A DNA stretch of 64,000 nucleotides from Flavobacterium beibuense F44-8 (GTDB taxonomy: Bacteria; Bacteroidota; Bacteroidia; Flavobacteriales; Flavobacteriaceae): positions 124,001 through 188,000 of the forward strand of contig NZ_JRLV01000005.1 of assembly GCF_000769915.1 (NCBI RefSeq). Reading direction: 5' to 3'. Below the pieces are notes generated by a model. That model ran no database searches. It worked only from the letters and a program-made list of their open reading frames with translations, and had not been told where the DNA came from. The stretch's first letter is position 1. Each line of letters opens with the position of its first letter. Position numbers and translations under genes: made by a program. Below are positions 34,736 to 43,129 of the stretch, piece after piece.

Positions 34736-37219
34736 ATGAAAAATATAAGTAAGTATTATCCGCACCTGCTTGCTGTTATAGGATTTGTTTTTGTTTCATT
34801 AGTTTATTTTTATCCGGTATTACAGGGTAAAAAAATATATCAGTCGGATATTGCCCAATATACCGGGATGGCAAAAGAGCAAAACGATTTCAGGAAGGAA
34901 ACAGGTGATGAGCCTTACTGGACAAACAGTGCCTTTGGCGGAATGCCTACTTACCAAATGGGGGCAAACTATCCGCATAACTATATTAAAAAGATAGACA
35001 GTGTTTTACGCTTTTTACCGCGCCCTGCCGATTATCTGTTCCTTTATTTTATAGGGTTTTATATACTTATGATGGCCTTAAGGGTTAGTCCGTTAAAAGC
35101 ATTTTTCGGAGCACTTGCCTTTGGTCTCTCCACCTATCTTATTATCATACTCGGGGTAGGGCATAATGCTAAAGCCCATGCTATTGCTTATATGCCTATG
35201 GTTGTAGCAGGAGTGATACTGGTATTCCAAAAACGATATATTGTGGGAGGGCTGCTTACTATGATGGCAGCAGCGCTGGAGATAAATGCCAACCACTTCC
35301 AAATGACGTACTACCTGTTACTGTTGTTACTGGTACTGGCTATTTATTTCATTATAGAAATTGTAAAAAGTAAAGATTTTAAACATCTTGGTAAAGCCAT
35401 GGGAGTGTTTGTTGTGGCGGGTATACTGGCGCTTGGTGCAAATGCTGCTAACCTAATGGCTACTTCAGAGTTTACTAACTTTAGTATAAGGGGTAAAAGC
35501 GAACTTACTTTTAATCCTGACGGTACTGAAAATACAACTACATCGTCAATGGATTACAGCTATATAACCGAATACAGCTATGGTGTTGCCGAGAGTTTTG
35601 ACCTTATAGCACCAAGGCTTTTTGGTGGTGGCGTTAGGGAAGATGTAGGCGAGGATTCTCATTTATATAACTTTATACTAGGACTTGGAGCATCTAATGC
35701 TGAGGCTAGAGAATTTGCGGCAAATTCACCTACTTATTGGGGTGATCAGCCTATTGTGGAAGCTCCGGCTTATATAGGTGCTGTTATCTTCTTCCTGGCA
35801 ATATTAGGACTGTTTATAGACAAACGAAAAATAAAATATGCCTTTTTGGCAGGTGCAATTCTGTCATTATTACTGTCGTGGGGTAAAAACTTCCCTGCAC
35901 TAACAAACTTCTTTATAGATAATGTTCCGTTATACGATAAGTTTAGAGCGGTATCATCCATACAGGTAATACTGGAACTGTGTTTCCCTGTACTGGCGAT
36001 AATGGGATTACAGTCTTTCTTTAAATCAGAAAAACAGGAACAGCTTAAAGCACTGTATAGTGCTGGCGGAGCTGCACTGGGAGTAATAGTGCTTTTATTC
36101 CTGTTTAAAGGTTCTTTTGACTTTTCAGGCGGAAGCGACGACCAGATCAGGCAGATGTACGGGCAGATGGGGCCTGACTTTGTAAAAGCCCTTATTGAAC
36201 AACGTAAGGAGATGTATACCTCTGATTTATTACGTTCGGGTATATTGATACTGATTTCTGCTGGTGCGCTTTGGATGTTTGTAAACAAAAAGCTGTCGGA
36301 CTTTGTGACGGTGCTTGTAGTGTGTGGACTTATGGTGTTTGATCTTTTCTTTATAGATAAGAACTATGTAAATAAGGATAACTTTAAAAGCGCAAGTCAG
36401 GTTGACAGACCTTTCCAGGCAAGTGCTGCCGATGAGTTTATAATGAAAGATACTTCCAGTTACAGGGTGTATGAACCATATGGAAGGTTACAGGCAAGAA
36501 CATCTTATTTCCACGAGTCGGTAGGAGGGTACAGTGCTGTTAGGCCGCAACGTACCGACCAATTGTTTACCTACAATGTGGAGAATAATATGGGAGTGCT
36601 GTTCAAATCAGTAGACCCTGAAACAATGACATTTACAGAATCGTTACCGGTGCTTAACATGCTTAATGTGAAGTATGTTTTACTACAGTCTAACGATAAT
36701 CAGGATATACCTGTTGAGAATCCGTTTGCTAACGGAAGCGGATGGTTTGTAAACACGGTTAAGAAAGTGAATTCGGCCGATGAGGAAATAAAGGCTCTTG
36801 ATAGTCTTGATACTAAAAATGTAGCCGTAGTTAATGTGGCTAAATTCCCTGAGGCGGTTTCTAGAGCTACTTTTGCTACTGATAGTACTGCTACTGTAAA
36901 ACTGGTTAAAAGAGAGCCTAATTATATTAAATATAAAACCAATAACACTAACGACGGACTTGCGGTATTCTCTGAAATATACTACCCTAAAGGATGGATA
37001 GCCACTATTGATGGTAAAGAACAGCCACATTTCCAGGCCGACTATGTTTTAAGGGCTATGCAAATACCGGCTGGTAAGCATACCGTTGAGTTTAAGTTTG
37101 AGCCACAGGTAGTGAAAAAAGGTAGTACTATAGCACTTATAAGCTTTATACTAATGCTGGTATTAATGGCAGCAGGTATATACTTTGGTACTAAAAAGAA
37201 AAGCGAAACGGCAGAATAA
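34736..37219 (+). CDS. YfhO-family polytopic membrane protein
   Basis: An 827-residue membrane protein of the YfhO family, whose members have a GT-C glycosyltransferase-like core and take part in sugar decoration of envelope polymers. It has some 12-14 hydrophobic helices (for example AVIGFVFVSLVYFYPVL, FFGALAFGLSTYLIIILGV, the C-terminal IALISFILMLVLMAAGIYFG), YQSDIAQYTGM in the first loop (acidic site), and a large soluble C-terminal part (residues about 540-790) with the YfhO pattern FSEIYYPKGW. A glycosyltransferase gene follows after 19 bases, so the pair is an operon. Confidence 0.88.
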   Translation: MKNISKYYPHLLAVIGFVFVSLVYFYPVLQGKKIYQSDIAQYTGMAKEQNDFRKETGDEPYWTNSAFGGMPTYQMGANYPHNYIKKIDSVLRFLPRPADYLFLYFIGFYILMMALRVSPLKAFFGALAFGLSTYLIIILGVGHNAKAHAIAYMPMVVAGVILVFQKRYIVGGLLTMMAAALEINANHFQMTYYLLLLLLVLAIYFIIEIVKSKDFKHLGKAMGVFVVAGILALGANAANLMATSEFTNFSIRGKSELTFNPDGTENTTTSSMDYSYITEYSYGVAESFDLIAPRLFGGGVREDVGEDSHLYNFILGLGASNAEAREFAANSPTYWGDQPIVEAPAYIGAVIFFLAILGLFIDKRKIKYAFLAGAILSLLLSWGKNFPALTNFFIDNVPLYDKFRAVSSIQVILELCFPVLAIMGLQSFFKSEKQEQLKALYSAGGAALGVIVLLFLFKGSFDFSGGSDDQIRQMYGQMGPDFVKALIEQRKEMYTSDLLRSGILILISAGALWMFVNKKLSDFVTVLVVCGLMVFDLFFIDKNYVNKDNFKSASQVDRPFQASAADEFIMKDTSSYRVYEPYGRLQARTSYFHESVGGYSAVRPQRTDQLFTYNVENNMGVLFKSVDPETMTFTESLPVLNMLNVKYVLLQSNDNQDIPVENPFANGSGWFVNTVKKVNSADEEIKALDSLDTKNVAVVNVAKFPEAVSRATFATDSTATVKLVKREPNYIKYKTNNTNDGLAVFSEIYYPKGWIATIDGKEQPHFQADYVLRAMQIPAGKHTVEFKFEPQVVKKGSTIALISFILMLVLMAAGIYFGTKKKSETAE

Positions 37220-37238: not shown

Positions 37239-38522
37239 ATGAAGAAGGTACTTATAATAACGTATTACTGGCCTCCTGCAGGCGGACCGGGAGTACAGCG
37301 TTGGTTAAAATTTGTAAAGTACCTGCCTGAGTATGGTATTGAGCCCATAGTTTATATCCCAAAAAATCCTACCTATCCTTTAATAGATGAAGAGTTACAA
37401 AAGGACGTGAGTTACAATACCACTATCCTTAAAAATAATATTATTGAGCCTTACGGTTGGGCTTCGGTATTTTCAAAAAAGAATACAAAGAAGATAAGCT
37501 CGGGGATCATACCTGATAAGAAAAAGCAGTCGGTACTCCAAAAACTGATGCTTTGGATTAGGGGTAATATGTTTATCCCGGATGCAAGGGTGCTTTGGGT
37601 AAGGCCTTCGGTAAGCTATTTGACCAACTATTTACAGGGCAGTGGTATTGATACGATTATTACTACCGGGCCTCCGCACAGCCTTCATTTAATAGGGATG
37701 GAGCTTCAAAAAAGGTTTGGAGTGAAGTGGATTGCCGATTTTCGTGATCCGTGGACAACTATTGGTTACCATAAGGAGCTTAGGTTAAGTGAATCGTCTC
37801 AGCAAAGGCATAAAAAAATGGAGCGCGATGTACTTAATACTGCCGATACTATTATTGTAACAAGCCCTACCACCAAAGCCGAGTTTGAACAGTTAACCGA
37901 TAAGCCTGTTACTGTAATCACTAACGGTTATGATGTTGAACCGGTGGCTAAAGAACCGCTTGATGAGAAGTTTACGTTAGCACATATAGGTTCGTTTCTG
38001 TCAGAACGTAATCCAAAGATACTTTGGGAATCACTATCAGAGCTTGTGAAAGAGGATGCTGAATTTAAAGATAAGTTCGAACTCAAACTTATAGGGGCTG
38101 TTAGTCAGGAAGTACTGACTTCCATAGAACAGCACGGGCTTACCGATTATGTTAATAATATGGGCTATGTATCGCATAGTGAAGCAGTAAAGCAGCAACG
38201 TAAATCGCAGGTATTACTGTTAGTCGAGATTGATTCTCTTGATACGCGTTGTATTATACCAGGCAAGCTGTTTGAATACATGGCATCTGAAAGACCTGTT
38301 ATAGGTGTAGGGCCACAGGGAGCGGACTTTGCTGATATTATTAAAACGACTAATACAGGTGTGTTTGTTGAGTATACAGAAAAAGAAAAGCTTAAGGATG
38401 CCCTTAAATCTTATTTCGCACAATATATGGGTGAGGGGTTAAAAGTACATGCTATTGGTTTACAACAATATTCTCGTAGGAATTTAACAAATCAGTTGGC
38501 AAATTTGTTAAAACAAAGTTAA
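37239..38522 (+). CDS. Family 4-type glycosyltransferase
   Basis: A 427-residue GT-B glycosyltransferase. The N-terminal domain begins KKVLIITYYWPPAGGPGVQRW (acceptor-side glycine loop). The C-terminal Rossmann domain has FTLAHIGSFLSERNP, KLIGAV, and the sugar-nucleotide contact IPGKLFEYMASERPVIGVG with a Glu in KLFEY. The family adds sugars from nucleotide donors during polysaccharide or glycolipid synthesis. Paired with the YfhO gene upstream, it probably supplies envelope glycosylation. No terminator hairpin with T-run is seen on this strand downstream. Confidence 0.92.
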   Translation: MKKVLIITYYWPPAGGPGVQRWLKFVKYLPEYGIEPIVYIPKNPTYPLIDEELQKDVSYNTTILKNNIIEPYGWASVFSKKNTKKISSGIIPDKKKQSVLQKLMLWIRGNMFIPDARVLWVRPSVSYLTNYLQGSGIDTIITTGPPHSLHLIGMELQKRFGVKWIADFRDPWTTIGYHKELRLSESSQQRHKKMERDVLNTADTIIVTSPTTKAEFEQLTDKPVTVITNGYDVEPVAKEPLDEKFTLAHIGSFLSERNPKILWESLSELVKEDAEFKDKFELKLIGAVSQEVLTSIEQHGLTDYVNNMGYVSHSEAVKQQRKSQVLLLVEIDSLDTRCIIPGKLFEYMASERPVIGVGPQGADFADIIKTTNTGVFVEYTEKEKLKDALKSYFAQYMGEGLKVHAIGLQQYSRRNLTNQLANLLKQS

Positions 38523-38576
38523 AAAACGTTGTAGTTGTTTTTTTAACTGGTATAAAATTCTAACCTTTAGGCTGTT

Positions 38577-38614
38577 AAAAAAGAAAATCCCGCTATTCTG
38601 GGAGAATAACGGGA
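38577..38614 (-). terminator. Rho-independent terminator of the candidate small RNA
   Basis: On the minus strand a 12-bp stem (TCCCGTTATTCT / AGAATAGCGGGA, one G-U pair) with loop CCC is followed by TTTTCTTTTTT. There is no T-run on the plus strand, so it does not serve the glycosyltransferase gene. No minus-strand protein gene lies directly upstream, and the VOC gene has its own terminator at 38840-38865. Confidence 0.85.
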
Positions 38615-38674
38615 CTTAACAAACCAACCAACCAATTATTAACAAACCTCAAAATTATAAAATCCTGAGATTTA
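38577..38674 (-). ncRNA. Candidate small RNA behind a sigma-54 promoter
   Basis: About 98 nt between a sigma-54-type promoter (38686-38700) and a rho-independent terminator. From the predicted 5' end the RNA would fold a first hairpin (AAATCTCA at 38673-38666 with TGAGGTTT at 38651-38644, 8 bp including one G-U). It then leaves an unpaired stretch with UUGGUUGGUUGG (complement of 38620-38635), and ends in the terminator stem. No open reading frame of note is inside. The layout of 5' hairpin, unpaired U/G-rich seed and terminator is that of trans-acting regulatory RNAs. Expression and function are inferred. Confidence 0.6.
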
Positions 38675-38685
38675 ATTAAATAATT

Positions 38686-38700
38686 ACAATTATCGTGCCA
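38686..38700 (-). promoter_or_regulatory. Sigma-54 (RpoN) type promoter
   Basis: On the minus strand it reads TGGCACGATAATTGT. This matches the -24/-12 consensus TGGCAC-N5-TTGC with one deviation (GT instead of GC at -12) and keeps the exact 10-base gap between the GG and the G of -12. The predicted start, about 12 bases on, is 38674. Confidence 0.6.
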
Positions 38701-38703
38701 AAA

Positions 38704-38750
38704 ATTAACCATGAGTTAATTCAGTTGACCCGAATTGTAATACAAAGTTA
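38704..38750 (-). promoter_or_regulatory. Dyads upstream of the sigma-54 promoter
   Basis: ATTAAC/GTTAAT (38704-38709, 38715-38720) and AATTC/GAATT (38718-38722, 38732-38736) are two overlapping inverted repeats just upstream of -24, where an activator or repressor could bind. A consensus -7 box for the housekeeping sigma (TAACTTTG on the minus strand) lies at 38743-38750 and could give an alternative, longer transcript. The rest of the 38523-38899 gap is AT-rich with no further gene seen. Confidence 0.4.
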
Positions 38751-38839
38751 ACGAATAATTAATTAATAAATTATCATTTGTCTTTTAAATATTTCGTTTT
38801 AATTGAATTTTTTTTATAAGAGGCAGTTAAAAAACATTG

Positions 38840-38865
38840 AAAACCCCAGCTATAGCTGGGGTTTT
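38840..38865. terminator. Terminator of the VOC gene
   Basis: Palindrome AAAACCCCAGCTA / TAGCTGGGGTTTT, with T-rich sequence following on the minus strand, 35 bases past the end of the VOC gene. Confidence 0.85.
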
Positions 38866-38899: not shown

Positions 38900-39268
38900 T
38901 TACGAAAAAAATTCTCCGAAATGCCATAATATCCCTGACGGATCGTGTACAAAACATTCTTTACCCCATTCCATAGTGCGTACAGGTACCAGCCTGACAT
39001 TTTCATATTTTGTTGTAAGGTTAAGTTCATTTAGGTTTTTCCAAAAAACATCAACGTTTTCCACTTCCATAAAAAGCATGGTATTATCTATCCAGTCCTT
39101 TACATAGGCTTTCTGTAAATAGAATGCTATTCCGTTATCGGTTTTAAAAACCGAAAGATCTGCAGAGAGTACGGTTTCCTCAAAGCCAAGGTCACGGTAA
39201 AACATTCGTGAAACTTCAAAGTCTTTTGCTCCTATAAAAGGGCGTATGGATTTAGCATTATGGTTCAT
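38900..39268 (-). CDS. VOC-family (glyoxalase/bleomycin resistance-like) protein
   Basis: A 122-residue protein of the vicinal-oxygen-chelate superfamily: paired beta-alpha-beta-beta-beta modules starting IRPFIGAKDFEVSRMFYRDLGFEE and ending CFVHDPSGILWHFGEF. The family includes glyoxalase I, dioxygenases and antibiotic-binding proteins. The final DPSGxLWHF motif is conserved, but metal ligands cannot be assigned with confidence. Single gene, ended by its own terminator. Function unknown. Confidence 0.88.
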   Translation of the reverse strand: MNHNAKSIRPFIGAKDFEVSRMFYRDLGFEETVLSADLSVFKTDNGIAFYLQKAYVKDWIDNTMLFMEVENVDVFWKNLNELNLTTKYENVRLVPVRTMEWGKECFVHDPSGILWHFGEFFS

Positions 39269-39324: not shown

Positions 39325-40020
39325 TTAGCTGTTCTCCATATACAGGAAAACCAAAAACAACATAATAAACAGCACGAATATTACAATAGCAATAAGTGTA
39401 GGAGGGGACTCCTTTACTTCCTTTGGTTGTTGTGGCTCGGGAGGATTATTGGTAGCTGTGATGCTGTCATTAATCTTGTTCAGTAGGTTAATGCGGTTAA
39501 CCATCCTTACATTACCATCGGCAAGTTTTAGGAGCCTGTCGTGAAACTCATGTTTAAGGCTTTCGTCTATAAATATGGCGCAGGTAAGGGCTTCGTCTAT
39601 AATCAGGTGGTTGATGCTTAAATCCTGTTTGCGTATCAGGAAACTGATGTTCTCCTCACTCAGTAGCCTGTCAATAGCATTGTAGAGTACATTTTTATTA
39701 ACGTGTCCGCCGGCACTCAGTACGGCATCTTTTATACGTTTTATCTGTACCAGGTATTTTATAGGGCTGGGTTTGCCCGGTTCGCTATATTGCGGTTTGT
39801 TTCCTTTTTTAAAACCCTTGAAATAATCGTACTCCAGGCGGGTTTCCTCGTCACTTAGTATGATGTAGGACTCCAGTATAGCCTTAAAGTTTTCCTCACT
39901 CTGTTTATCACCATTATTTTTATCGGGGTGGTATTTTACCGCCAGTACCCTGTAAGCCTTTTTTATTTCGGCCTGAGTACAGGTTTGGGAAACACCAAGT
40001 ATTTCATAATGGTTTTTCAT
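39325..40020 (-). CDS. J-domain protein with C-terminal membrane anchor
   Basis: A 231-residue protein. Residues 3-66 are a J-domain ([24 protein letters not shown] at 31-33, [11 protein letters not shown]) that should stimulate a DnaK-type Hsp70. The middle (residues about 85-190) is helical and not recognised; there is no Gly/Phe region or zinc-finger domain, so it is not DnaJ itself. The last 25 residues ([19 protein letters not shown]) form a single transmembrane helix, so the J-domain is anchored facing the cytosol. Single gene next to a repeat cluster. Confidence 0.9.
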
Positions 40021-40313: not shown

Positions 40314-43103
40314 CTACAACTTCTCTCCCAAATATTCTCCTGTTACCGACTTAGGGTTTTTAGCAATTTCCTCAGGAGTACCAAAGGCTACTAAATGTCC
40401 GCCATTTTCACCACCTTCAGGACCAATGTCTATAATATAGTCGGCACACTTAATAAGGTCAAGGTTGTGCTCAATAACAATGATTGAATGTCCTTTATCG
40501 ATAAGGGCGTCAAACGATGCCATTAGTTTCTGGATATCATGGAAATGAAGCCCTGTTGTAGGTTCGTCAAACACGAATAAGGCTTTATCTTTCGTATTTC
40601 CCTTAACCAGGAACGATGCCAGTTTTATACGCTGTGCCTCACCACCCGAAAGGGTAGAAGACGACTGCCCTAACTGTACATACCCTAAACCAACATCCTG
40701 TAACGGTTGTAGTTTTTGGGTAATTTTGGTTTGCTTGTGCTTATCAAAAAACTCAAGGGCATCATCTATGGTCATGGTAAGTATATCATCGATATTCTTA
40801 CCTTCAAAAGCCACTTCCAGCACCTCTTTCTTAAAGCGTTTACCATTACAGGTTTCGCACTCCAGGTGAACATCGGCCATGAACTGCATCTCTATAGTAA
40901 CTTCGCCTTCCCCTTTACAGGTTTCACAGCGTCCGCCATCTACATTGAACGAGAAATGCTTTGCCTGATAGCCTCGTAGTTTGGAAAGCTTTTGCTTAGA
41001 GAACAAATCTCTAATATCATCATAAGCTTTAATGTAGGTAACCGGGTTAGAACGCGAACTGCGCCCAATAGGGTTTTGGTCTACATATTCAATATGCTTA
41101 ATGTGTGAGTAGCTACCCTGCAGTTCGGTAAACTGTCCGGCTTTTTCGCCCACGCCTTCCAGTTTCTTTTGTATGGCAGGGAATAATATCTTTTTTACCA
41201 GTGTACTCTTACCACTACCCGAAACTCCGGTAATAACCGTTAGGCAGTCCAGCGGGAAGGTTACATCTATATTTTTAAGGTTGTTTTCGCGTGCGCCTAC
41301 AACATCCACATGATTTTTAAACTTGCGACGTTTTGCAGGTACTTTGATTTCCATATCGCCGTTAAGGTATTTTGCGGTAAGTGATTCTGATTTCAGGATC
41401 TCATCATACGTACCCTGAGCTACCAGACGACCACCGTGTGTACCCGCTTCCGGACCTATATCGATAATCATATCGGCAGCCTTCATGATGTCTTCATCGT
41501 GCTCTACCACAATAACGGTGTTGCCCAAATCACGTAGCCCGATAAGTACCTTAATAAGTCTTTCGGTATCTTTAGGGTGAAGCCCTATACTTGGTTCATC
41601 CAATATGTACATAGACCCCACAAGGCTACTGCCCAGTGATGTTGCCAGGTTAATACGTTGTGATTCACCACCCGAAAGGGTAGACGACCTACGGTTTAGC
41701 GTAAGGTAATCAAGCCCCACTTCCTGCAGGAAGCTAAGGCGGTTATTGATTTCAACCAACAGGCGTTTAGCTACCTTTTGGTCGTATTCACTAAGTTGGA
41801 TTCCTTTAAAAAACTCAATAAGGTTTTTGATAGGCATATCCACAAGGTCTGATATGGTATGGTTGTCAATCTTTACGTGATTGGCTTCCGGTTTAAGGCG
41901 TTTGCCCTTACATGCCGGGCACTTGGTTTTACCACGGTAACGCGAAAGCATAACGCGGTTTTGTATTTTATAGTTTTTCTCTTCCAGTTCGGCAAAAAAG
42001 TCATCCAGTCCTGTAAAGTACTGGTTACCTTTCCATATAAGTGCCTTATCACTTTCAGACAACTGGAAGTACGGTTTGTGTACAGGGAAATTGAATTTGT
42101 GACTGTTGTTGACCAACTGGTCACGGTACCAGCCCATGCTCTCACCACGCCACGGATAAATGGCATTTTCAAATACCGAAAGGGCTGTGTTTGGGACAAC
42201 AAGCTCCTCATCTATGCCTACTATGCTGCCGTAACCTTCGCACGACGGACAGGCACCATAGGGATTATTAAAACTGAAAAGGTGTACGTTTGGCTCCAGG
42301 AAGGTAAGTCCGTCCAACTCAAAATTACTACTAAAAGCCAGTCGGTTTCCGGTTTTTACATCCTGAAGGTACGTTTCGCCTTTACCTTCGTAAAAAGCAG
42401 TTTGTACGGCATCTGCCAGTCGGTTATAAAATTCCTCTTCATCTTTTACCACAATACGGTCTACAATAAGCATTACCTCTTTGTTGGCAAAGTCGGTATC
42501 GCCCAGTTCGTCCAGTCGCAGCATTTCGTTATCTACCAGTATACGGGCAAAACCCTGCTGTAGTAAAACGTTTAGTTTTTCTTCAATGGTACGGCCTTTC
42601 TCTATGTGTACAGGTGCCAGTAACAACCATCGGCTGCCGTCTTCCTGTTTTTTAACCTCTTCAACCACATCGGTTACTGTATGCTTTTTAACCTCACGAC
42701 CTGAAACAGGGGAGTAGGTACGCCCTACACGAGCAAAAAGTAGTTTTAGGTAATCGTAAATCTCGGTACTGGTGCCTACGGTAGACCTCGCATTGGTAGT
42801 GTTTACCTTTTGCTCAATGGCAATAGCGGGGGCTATACCCTTAATGTATTCTACTTTTGGTTTGTCCAGACGACCTAAAAACTGACGCGCATATGACGAA
42901 AGGCTTTCCACATATCGGCGTTGTCCTTCGGCATAAAGCGTATCAAAAGCCAGGCTTGATTTACCTGAGCCCGAAAGCCCGGTTACCACAACCAGCTTGT
43001 TACGCGGAATGGCTACATCAATGTTTTTAAGATTGTGAAGCTGCGCCCCTTTTATAAGGATGTTTTTTTTAGGTTCGAGTGTTGATATATCGGTTTTTAT
43101 CAT
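40314..43103 (-). CDS. uvrA: Excinuclease ABC subunit A
   Basis: A 929-residue DNA-damage sensor of nucleotide-excision repair. Two ABC ATPase modules are visible: Walker [15 protein letters not shown] and [13 protein letters not shown], two signatures [14 protein letters not shown] and [14 protein letters not shown], Walker [11 protein letters not shown] and [10 protein letters not shown]. Zinc modules have CPACKGKR and CETCKGEG...CETCNGKR. The start is placed at 43103 (MIKTDIS), because the longer in-frame ATG at 43124 lies inside the promoter -7 box. Length then matches UvrA. Single gene. Confidence 0.97.
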
Positions 43104-43121
43104 AGCAAAAATGGTAATGTG

Positions 43122-43129
43122 CAAAGATA
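43122..43129 (-). promoter_or_regulatory. Promoter -7 box of uvrA
   Basis: TATCTTTG on the minus strand, exact consensus, overlapping the rejected upstream ATG; transcription should begin near 43116. Confidence 0.6.

Follow-up and report, generated by a model that had tools for sequence, protein, structure and literature searches.

A sigma-54-type small RNA gene family of Flavobacteriaceae and a predicted seed-plus-terminator module shared with mRNAs of exported proteins

The window analysed here, a 64,000-nucleotide stretch of the genome of Flavobacterium beibuense F44-8, carries in the following order uvrA (40314..43124, minus strand), a gene that we take to be DnaJ-like (39325..40020, minus), a VOC-family gene (38900..39268, minus, named in an earlier sequence-only reading of this DNA), a small RNA (sRNA) gene, a convergent glycosyltransferase gene (37239..38522, plus) and a gene for a presumably YfhO-like membrane protein (34736..37219, plus). 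The sRNA gene lies on the minus strand, inside the 377-base gap between the stop of the glycosyltransferase gene (38522) and the VOC gene (38900), its upstream neighbour, which has its own terminator. It consists of a sigma-54-type -24/-12 promoter (TTGGCACGATAATTGT, 38701-38686), a transcription start predicted from the promoter position near 38674, a 5' hairpin (38643..38674), the putative seed UUGGUUGGUUGGUUUG (38620..38635), a terminator hairpin (38587..38615) and a T-run (38577..38586) at which the RNA would end after about 98 nt. The assignment of this promoter to RpoN in the sequence-only reading holds for its type and its GG-N10-G spacing, but the next base, at -12, is T and the usual C is absent. 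The fold of a 99-nt RNA has an energy of -31.6 kcal/mol (z = -5.4), which none of 200 shuffles equalled or bettered, and comprises the 5' hairpin, a loop region and, at the 3' end, a terminator of 13 bp with T's after it; on reading the sequence, a T-run follows the terminator hairpin on the minus strand only. Both the 5' hairpin and the strong minus-strand terminator that had been described from the sequence are thus found. The intervening UUGGUUGG stretch, earlier described as unpaired, is predicted to be largely but not wholly so (mean 0.68 over 16 nt). An ATG was looked for in the window RNA and none is present.

The earlier reading had looked to the presence of rpoN in the genome, and a genome search found the gene together with four strong sigma-54 activators, three of them with HTH_8 and one of receiver-AAA type in which a DNA-binding domain was not detected. 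This last activator, at G000:C57:44341 (L033), might function without an upstream site. No activator palindrome common to the whole family was found among dyads and 8-mers upstream of 97 family promoters, and several of the 8-mers enriched there resemble, by reading, the 3' end of uvrA and a divergent gene. A possible regulator site is an inverted repeat (ATTATGCNNGCATAAT type) that adjoins the sigma-54 promoter, just upstream of the -24 element, at four Nonlabens loci (L077, L080, L085 and L086).

Conservation within the genus follows the predicted boundaries of the gene. Among 100 genomes searched, that of F. beibuense included, the only second long match was an 83% copy in another Flavobacterium (G032), which spans TTTGGCAC and the promoter at one end and the T-run at the other; this match and the consensus of the wider family agree with the expectation that the promoter would be kept in relatives. 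The same form is present in ten other genus genomes. Of 299 genus genomes submitted to a pattern search, 18 had a match, of which 11, including our own, were judged real members and the remaining 7 coding or chance; with the exact pattern in only 11 of 299 genomes, the form is either uncommon in the genus or has diverged there. The seed is the most conserved stretch in the alignment of these 11 members, in which TAATAATTGGTTGGTTGGTTTG and GTCCCG are nearly invariant. The sequence-only reading had also looked for conserved stems, and this was borne out for the terminator, where both sides have changed with pairing kept in 6 of 14 pairs among the 11 genomes, but not for the 5' hairpin, which RNAalifold did not recover as a consensus from the same members; its sequence is variable among them, though it still forms in single folds. 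In Rfam 15 no family reached its gathering score for the sRNA in searches of the whole window or of five family loci, these five giving no match at E 0.1, and a search of 38450-38850 up to E 10 returned sub-threshold matches only, with Flavo-1 not among them. Membership of an Rfam family, Flavo-1 included, was therefore rejected; the sequence-only reading, made without searches, had likewise known of no described RNA of this form. The sole Rfam match at threshold in the window is an L19-Flavobacteria ribosomal protein leader (222-249, minus).

The sRNA gene is real and a member of a family. The loci examined contain 98 distinct sigma-54 sRNA genes with promoter, motif and scored terminator, nearly all from Flavobacteriaceae, this number being 115 pattern matches less 17 that fell below the terminator score (about 8 of these real and about 9 chance, by reading) and including one from a Campylobacterales record (L114) that looks like chance. 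Among the matches listed for 80 titled records, recognised members belong, L114 excepted, to Flavobacteriaceae or to metagenome-assembled genomes titled 'Bacteroidetes bacterium', with Aequorivita, Nonlabens, Mangrovimonas, Mesonia, Salinimicrobium, Galbibacter, Sinomicrobium, Formosa, Ulvibacter and others represented; matches from other phyla resemble coding sequence. An exact pattern scan of species genomes gave at least 117 stretches, and the pattern TGGCAY-N5-TTG-N30-60-TTGGTTGG had matches in 64 of the 397 family genomes (chance matches among them), against 18 for the reversed control. The canonical form is UUUUGGUUGGUUAGUU plus terminator, and the family consensus reads tTTTGGCACg..a.TTGaa., a variable AU-rich hairpin, tttTTTGGTTGGTTAGTt and the terminator; the C after GG-N10-G is not conserved among the 98 members. 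Single-sequence folds of the 5' hairpin region gave a mean z of -2.46, with 59 of 98 members below -2, and Aequorivita members lack this hairpin. An ATG frame of at least 15 codons occurs in 14 of the 98. Tandem copies are found, and the family is often multi-copy.

Gene order is also retained, the locus of uvrA, sRNA, glycosyltransferase and YfhO being found in other genera too. Among 61 sufficiently long loci, 31 have uvrA, the upstream anchor of the neighbourhood, on the strand of the sRNA and at most three genes upstream of it. A gene for an exported 'family A' protein lies directly downstream of the sRNA in 22, and on the opposite strand the glycosyltransferase gene of the window is found in 13 and its YfhO-like gene in 8. 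In the other genus members, 9 of the 10 loci have the glycosyltransferase gene next to the sRNA, and a VOC homologue adjoins the sRNA at L227, L238 and L250. The family A gene is absent at the window locus, and in some other genera the sRNA stands in a different neighbourhood. The window copy is the positional ortholog.

The 3' module of the sRNA, seed plus terminator, also terminates mRNAs of exported proteins in other genera of Flavobacteriaceae. The motif TAACCAACCAAA occupies 134 distinct places in the loci read, which a script classed as 41 sigma-54 sRNAs, 35 terminator-only (no sigma-54 box lying within 130 nt), 27 coding, 11 5' UTR and 20 other. The mRNAs that end in the module encode the family A protein (exported, 'FVERGIEF..FPDGQFDF'), a lipoprotein-like protein (family B), two proteins that we take to resemble Spy/CpxP, and others; Pfam gave one weak sub-threshold match for the Spy/CpxP-like proteins and no family for either of two other sequences searched, a family A fragment and a family B protein. 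A canonical sigma-54 promoter precedes 17 of 22 module-bearing mRNAs, with one near miss and four, both Spy-like genes among them, with none; these 22 were drawn from 27 module loci, the others (L294, L307, L315, L324 and L327) having the stop codon 62-93 nt before the motif in four cases and 24 nt before it in one. In F. beibuense itself, no sigma-54 mRNA bearing the module was found.

The sequence-only reading had predicted a C/A-rich mRNA target, and CCAACCAA-type sites are indeed enriched before start codons. In 49 sRNA-bearing genomes (11 genus members and 38 family genomes with an intergenic-looking match, G114, G175, G297 and G465 being left out) the pattern AACCAACCAA-N4-18-ATGAA occurs at 101 places, part of which are antisense of the sRNAs themselves and which, the genomes being related, are not independent; its reversal occurs at 29, and a permuted-word control gave 25 places and, reversed, 34. 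The reversed TAACCAACCAAA word was a poor control, since the complement of the seed survives in it, and the permuted word took its place. A further 36 genomes come from other families of Flavobacteriales, defined by taxonomy alone; they are 39 same-order genomes less three tiny ones. In them the AACCAACCAA word and its control each gave 11, a density for the word of 0.13 per Mb (about 87 Mb) as against 0.62 per Mb in the sRNA-bearing genomes (about 162 Mb). Reading about 70 of the 101 places in context, with four loci from other searches, gave 73 distinct places comprising 36 true 5' UTRs, 22 coding and 15 without ORF, and the 25 permuted-word places comprised 4, 19 and 2 respectively. The sites in the 36 5' UTRs lie 10-28 nt from the start codon, and a simple hydropathy rule finds a hydrophobic N-terminus in 33 of the 36 encoded proteins; the background, taken from ATGAA genes in the vicinity of sRNA loci, is 124 of 202 (p 2e-4). 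Orthologous candidate targets recur across genera, and these presumably encode a CocE-type peptidase (L442, L463 and L470), an M28-type peptidase (L400 and L444) and a DUF6029-like protein (L384 and L437).

Within the F. beibuense genome the word has 22 distinct places, namely 2 sRNA modules, 13 just before an ATG, 6 coding and 1 other, so that 13 of the 20 non-module places are, by reading, candidate targets; three of the 13 (L490, L504 and L506) had been called coding by the script through an overlapping frame and were reclassified by reading, and the binomial test applied to this genome took 22 as denominator with guessed background rates. Predicted pairing of these sites with the window seed extends over 10-18 nt, those at C8:23855 and C15:58421 matching over 18 nt, and five of the 13 candidates do not look exported. 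A T before the target site was found in 12 of 22 against 6 of 25 cases when compared with the seed variant of the genome (p 0.04), a weak association that was not counted as support; match length did not differ with seed variant, and targets are not clearly matched to the variant of their own genome. Full-length duplex energies did not separate targets from random pieces, in a random pool that included the antisense of the sRNA itself, and an 8-mer rank test gave no signal, its 552 genes from around sRNA loci being too small a data set.

We consider it likely that this is a sigma-54-dependent trans-acting sRNA, and that transcripts of an envelope-stress regulon share a seed which would repress mRNAs of envelope proteins. 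The proposal is built on the promoter, structure, conservation, synteny, 3' module, promoters of module-bearing mRNAs and site enrichment, all as read from sequence, and the anatomy (a stress sigma factor, a mostly free seed, a terminator and complements at start sites) fits a repressor of envelope load. In the available text of the sources, the sigma-54 regulon of F. psychrophilum includes chaperones, proteases, lipoproteins, a gliding operon with sprB and one sRNA, Rfp36 (PMC9723704), and in a survey covering sigma-54 regulons, genes for chaperones and proteases are reported as enriched in Flavobacteriia (PMC12316311); as published regulons hold chaperones and proteases, they support the reading of the signal as stress (PMC9723704, PMC12316311). 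An enhancer-binding protein would sense this stress, probably of the envelope or of protein folding, upon which RpoN polymerase would transcribe an RNA of roughly 98 nt in which an exposed UUGGUUGGUUG stretch lies between a 5' hairpin and a terminator. In the cell the exposed UUGGUUGGUUG would then pair with CCAACCAA sites located about 10-40 nt before the start codons of mRNAs mainly for exported proteins and lipoproteins, most likely blocking their translation rather than activating it. In the other genera, where the seed-plus-terminator module appears also to end sigma-54-driven mRNAs of exported proteins, the regulon would itself supply, in coding as well as non-coding form, a repressor of additional envelope load, and we infer that the 3' ends of these mRNAs are released as sRNAs. 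More tentatively, and as a possibility that we hold to be open to considerable doubt, one repressor seed may be hard-wired into the 3' ends of many transcripts, coding and non-coding, of a whole sigma-54 stress regulon in Flavobacteriaceae. Each stress mRNA, once induced, would then also be the source of an RNA that silences the synthesis of new envelope proteins, in a post-transcriptional envelope-stress circuit built independently of the sigma-E/Hfq systems.

That a promoter and a terminator have come together here by chance, with no functional RNA, is hardly credible: AT-rich intergenic DNA does yield many promoter-like boxes, but conservation bounded by promoter and T-run, covariation, the 98 members and synteny all stand against it. 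The enrichment of CCAACCAA before starts might instead be a feature of translation initiation whose complementarity to the sRNA is coincidental. Flavobacterial translation starts are generally A-rich and lack a Shine-Dalgarno sequence, and such a feature would agree with the lack of clear co-variation between seed variant and target flank; it is nevertheless a quite improbable explanation, as a control word of equal composition shows no enrichment, with 4 true 5' UTRs, other Flavobacteriales families have no excess, and pairs in the F. beibuense genome reach 18 nt. Pairing close to a start codon usually prevents initiation, and the position of the sites 10-28 nt from it makes it improbable that the sRNA pairs with these same sites yet activates or stabilises its targets, an effect for which F. 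beibuense would have a parallel in its genus.

The parallel is the F. psychrophilum sRNA Rfp18, which according to the available part of PMC9723704 is required for full levels of two protease mRNAs. A further unlikely explanation is that UUGGUUGGUUAG before the terminator chiefly recruits an RNA-binding protein (of RRM type, for instance) by which 3' ends are protected or marked, the sRNA being a sponge or decoy for it. In favour of this, UUGGUUGGUUAG immediately precedes the terminator both in sRNAs and in mRNAs, and the Bacteroides RRM protein RbpB, in the accessible text of PMC11697453, binds a multi-copy sRNA family at single-stranded regions. This explanation does not account, however, for the over-representation of the complement ahead of start codons, which is seen only where the sRNA family occurs, and protein binding and target pairing could coexist.

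Regulation by sRNAs is little known in Flavobacteriaceae, a group that is abundant in sea and soil and includes fish pathogens, and the present analysis adds an sRNA that occurs across the family, for which promoter, seed and target list are predicted. Beyond the sequence-only reading, the analysis points to an often multi-copy group spread across the family, a module on sigma-54 mRNAs and candidate sites before genes of exported proteins. Transcription of sRNAs by sigma-54 has precedents in Qrr of Vibrio, which exists in several copies with a common seed, and in GlmY/GlmZ of enterobacteria, but seed, targets and host group differ. In their working, the closest likeness is to MicA and RybB, made under sigma-E, and CpxQ, from the cpxP 3' end, which are produced under stress and pair near the starts of envelope-protein mRNAs; the seed described here likewise appears complementary to start regions of envelope-protein mRNAs. 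The sigma factor, the phylum, the seed and the position of the seed, here just before the terminator, are different. We know of no Hfq dependence of the family. The present family suggests that the logic of the enterobacterial sigma-E/CpxQ response, in which sRNAs and the 3' ends of mRNAs silence envelope-protein mRNAs, had a separate origin with sigma-54. Within the same phylum, FopS/GibS of Bacteroides thetaiotaomicron are, in the available text of PMC11697453, multi-copy, with a shared single-stranded seed followed by a terminator and pairing at start sites. FopS is there described as having housekeeping sigma-ABfr promoters and a role in polysaccharide use (PMC11697453), in contrast to the present family, whose promoters are of sigma-54 rather than sigma-ABfr type, and which has a 5' hairpin and a module that also occurs on mRNAs. 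Rfp36 of F. psychrophilum is likewise a flavobacterial non-coding RNA with an experimentally mapped sigma-54 start, co-expressed with exported proteins and lipoproteins in the available part of PMC9723704 (Table 2A), a likeness by description. Among the matches listed in the literature searched, subscription papers being outside its scope, no description of the window sRNA was found, and within that literature the apparently new part is a seed shared by sRNAs and mRNA 3' ends of one putative sigma-54 regulon.

The same seed is also found on an RNA with another type of promoter. A second RNA that carries it in the F. beibuense genome, at C61:70409 (L452, G000:C61:65000-76000), has a housekeeping-type TAnnTTTG box, and the sequence flanking its motif recurs in 10 of 11 genus members. 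Directly after this RNA there is a sigma-54-like TTGGAACAAAAATTGT box, followed by the gene of an exported protein. In two other genera (L292 and L354), a housekeeping-type sRNA carries GTTTTCATAATTTAAAGTTTTGGTTGGTTAATG and a terminator, and the complement of this GTTTTCATAATTTAAAGTTTTGGTTGGTTAATG string recurs in six genomes (G241, G354, G395, G193, G348 and G120).
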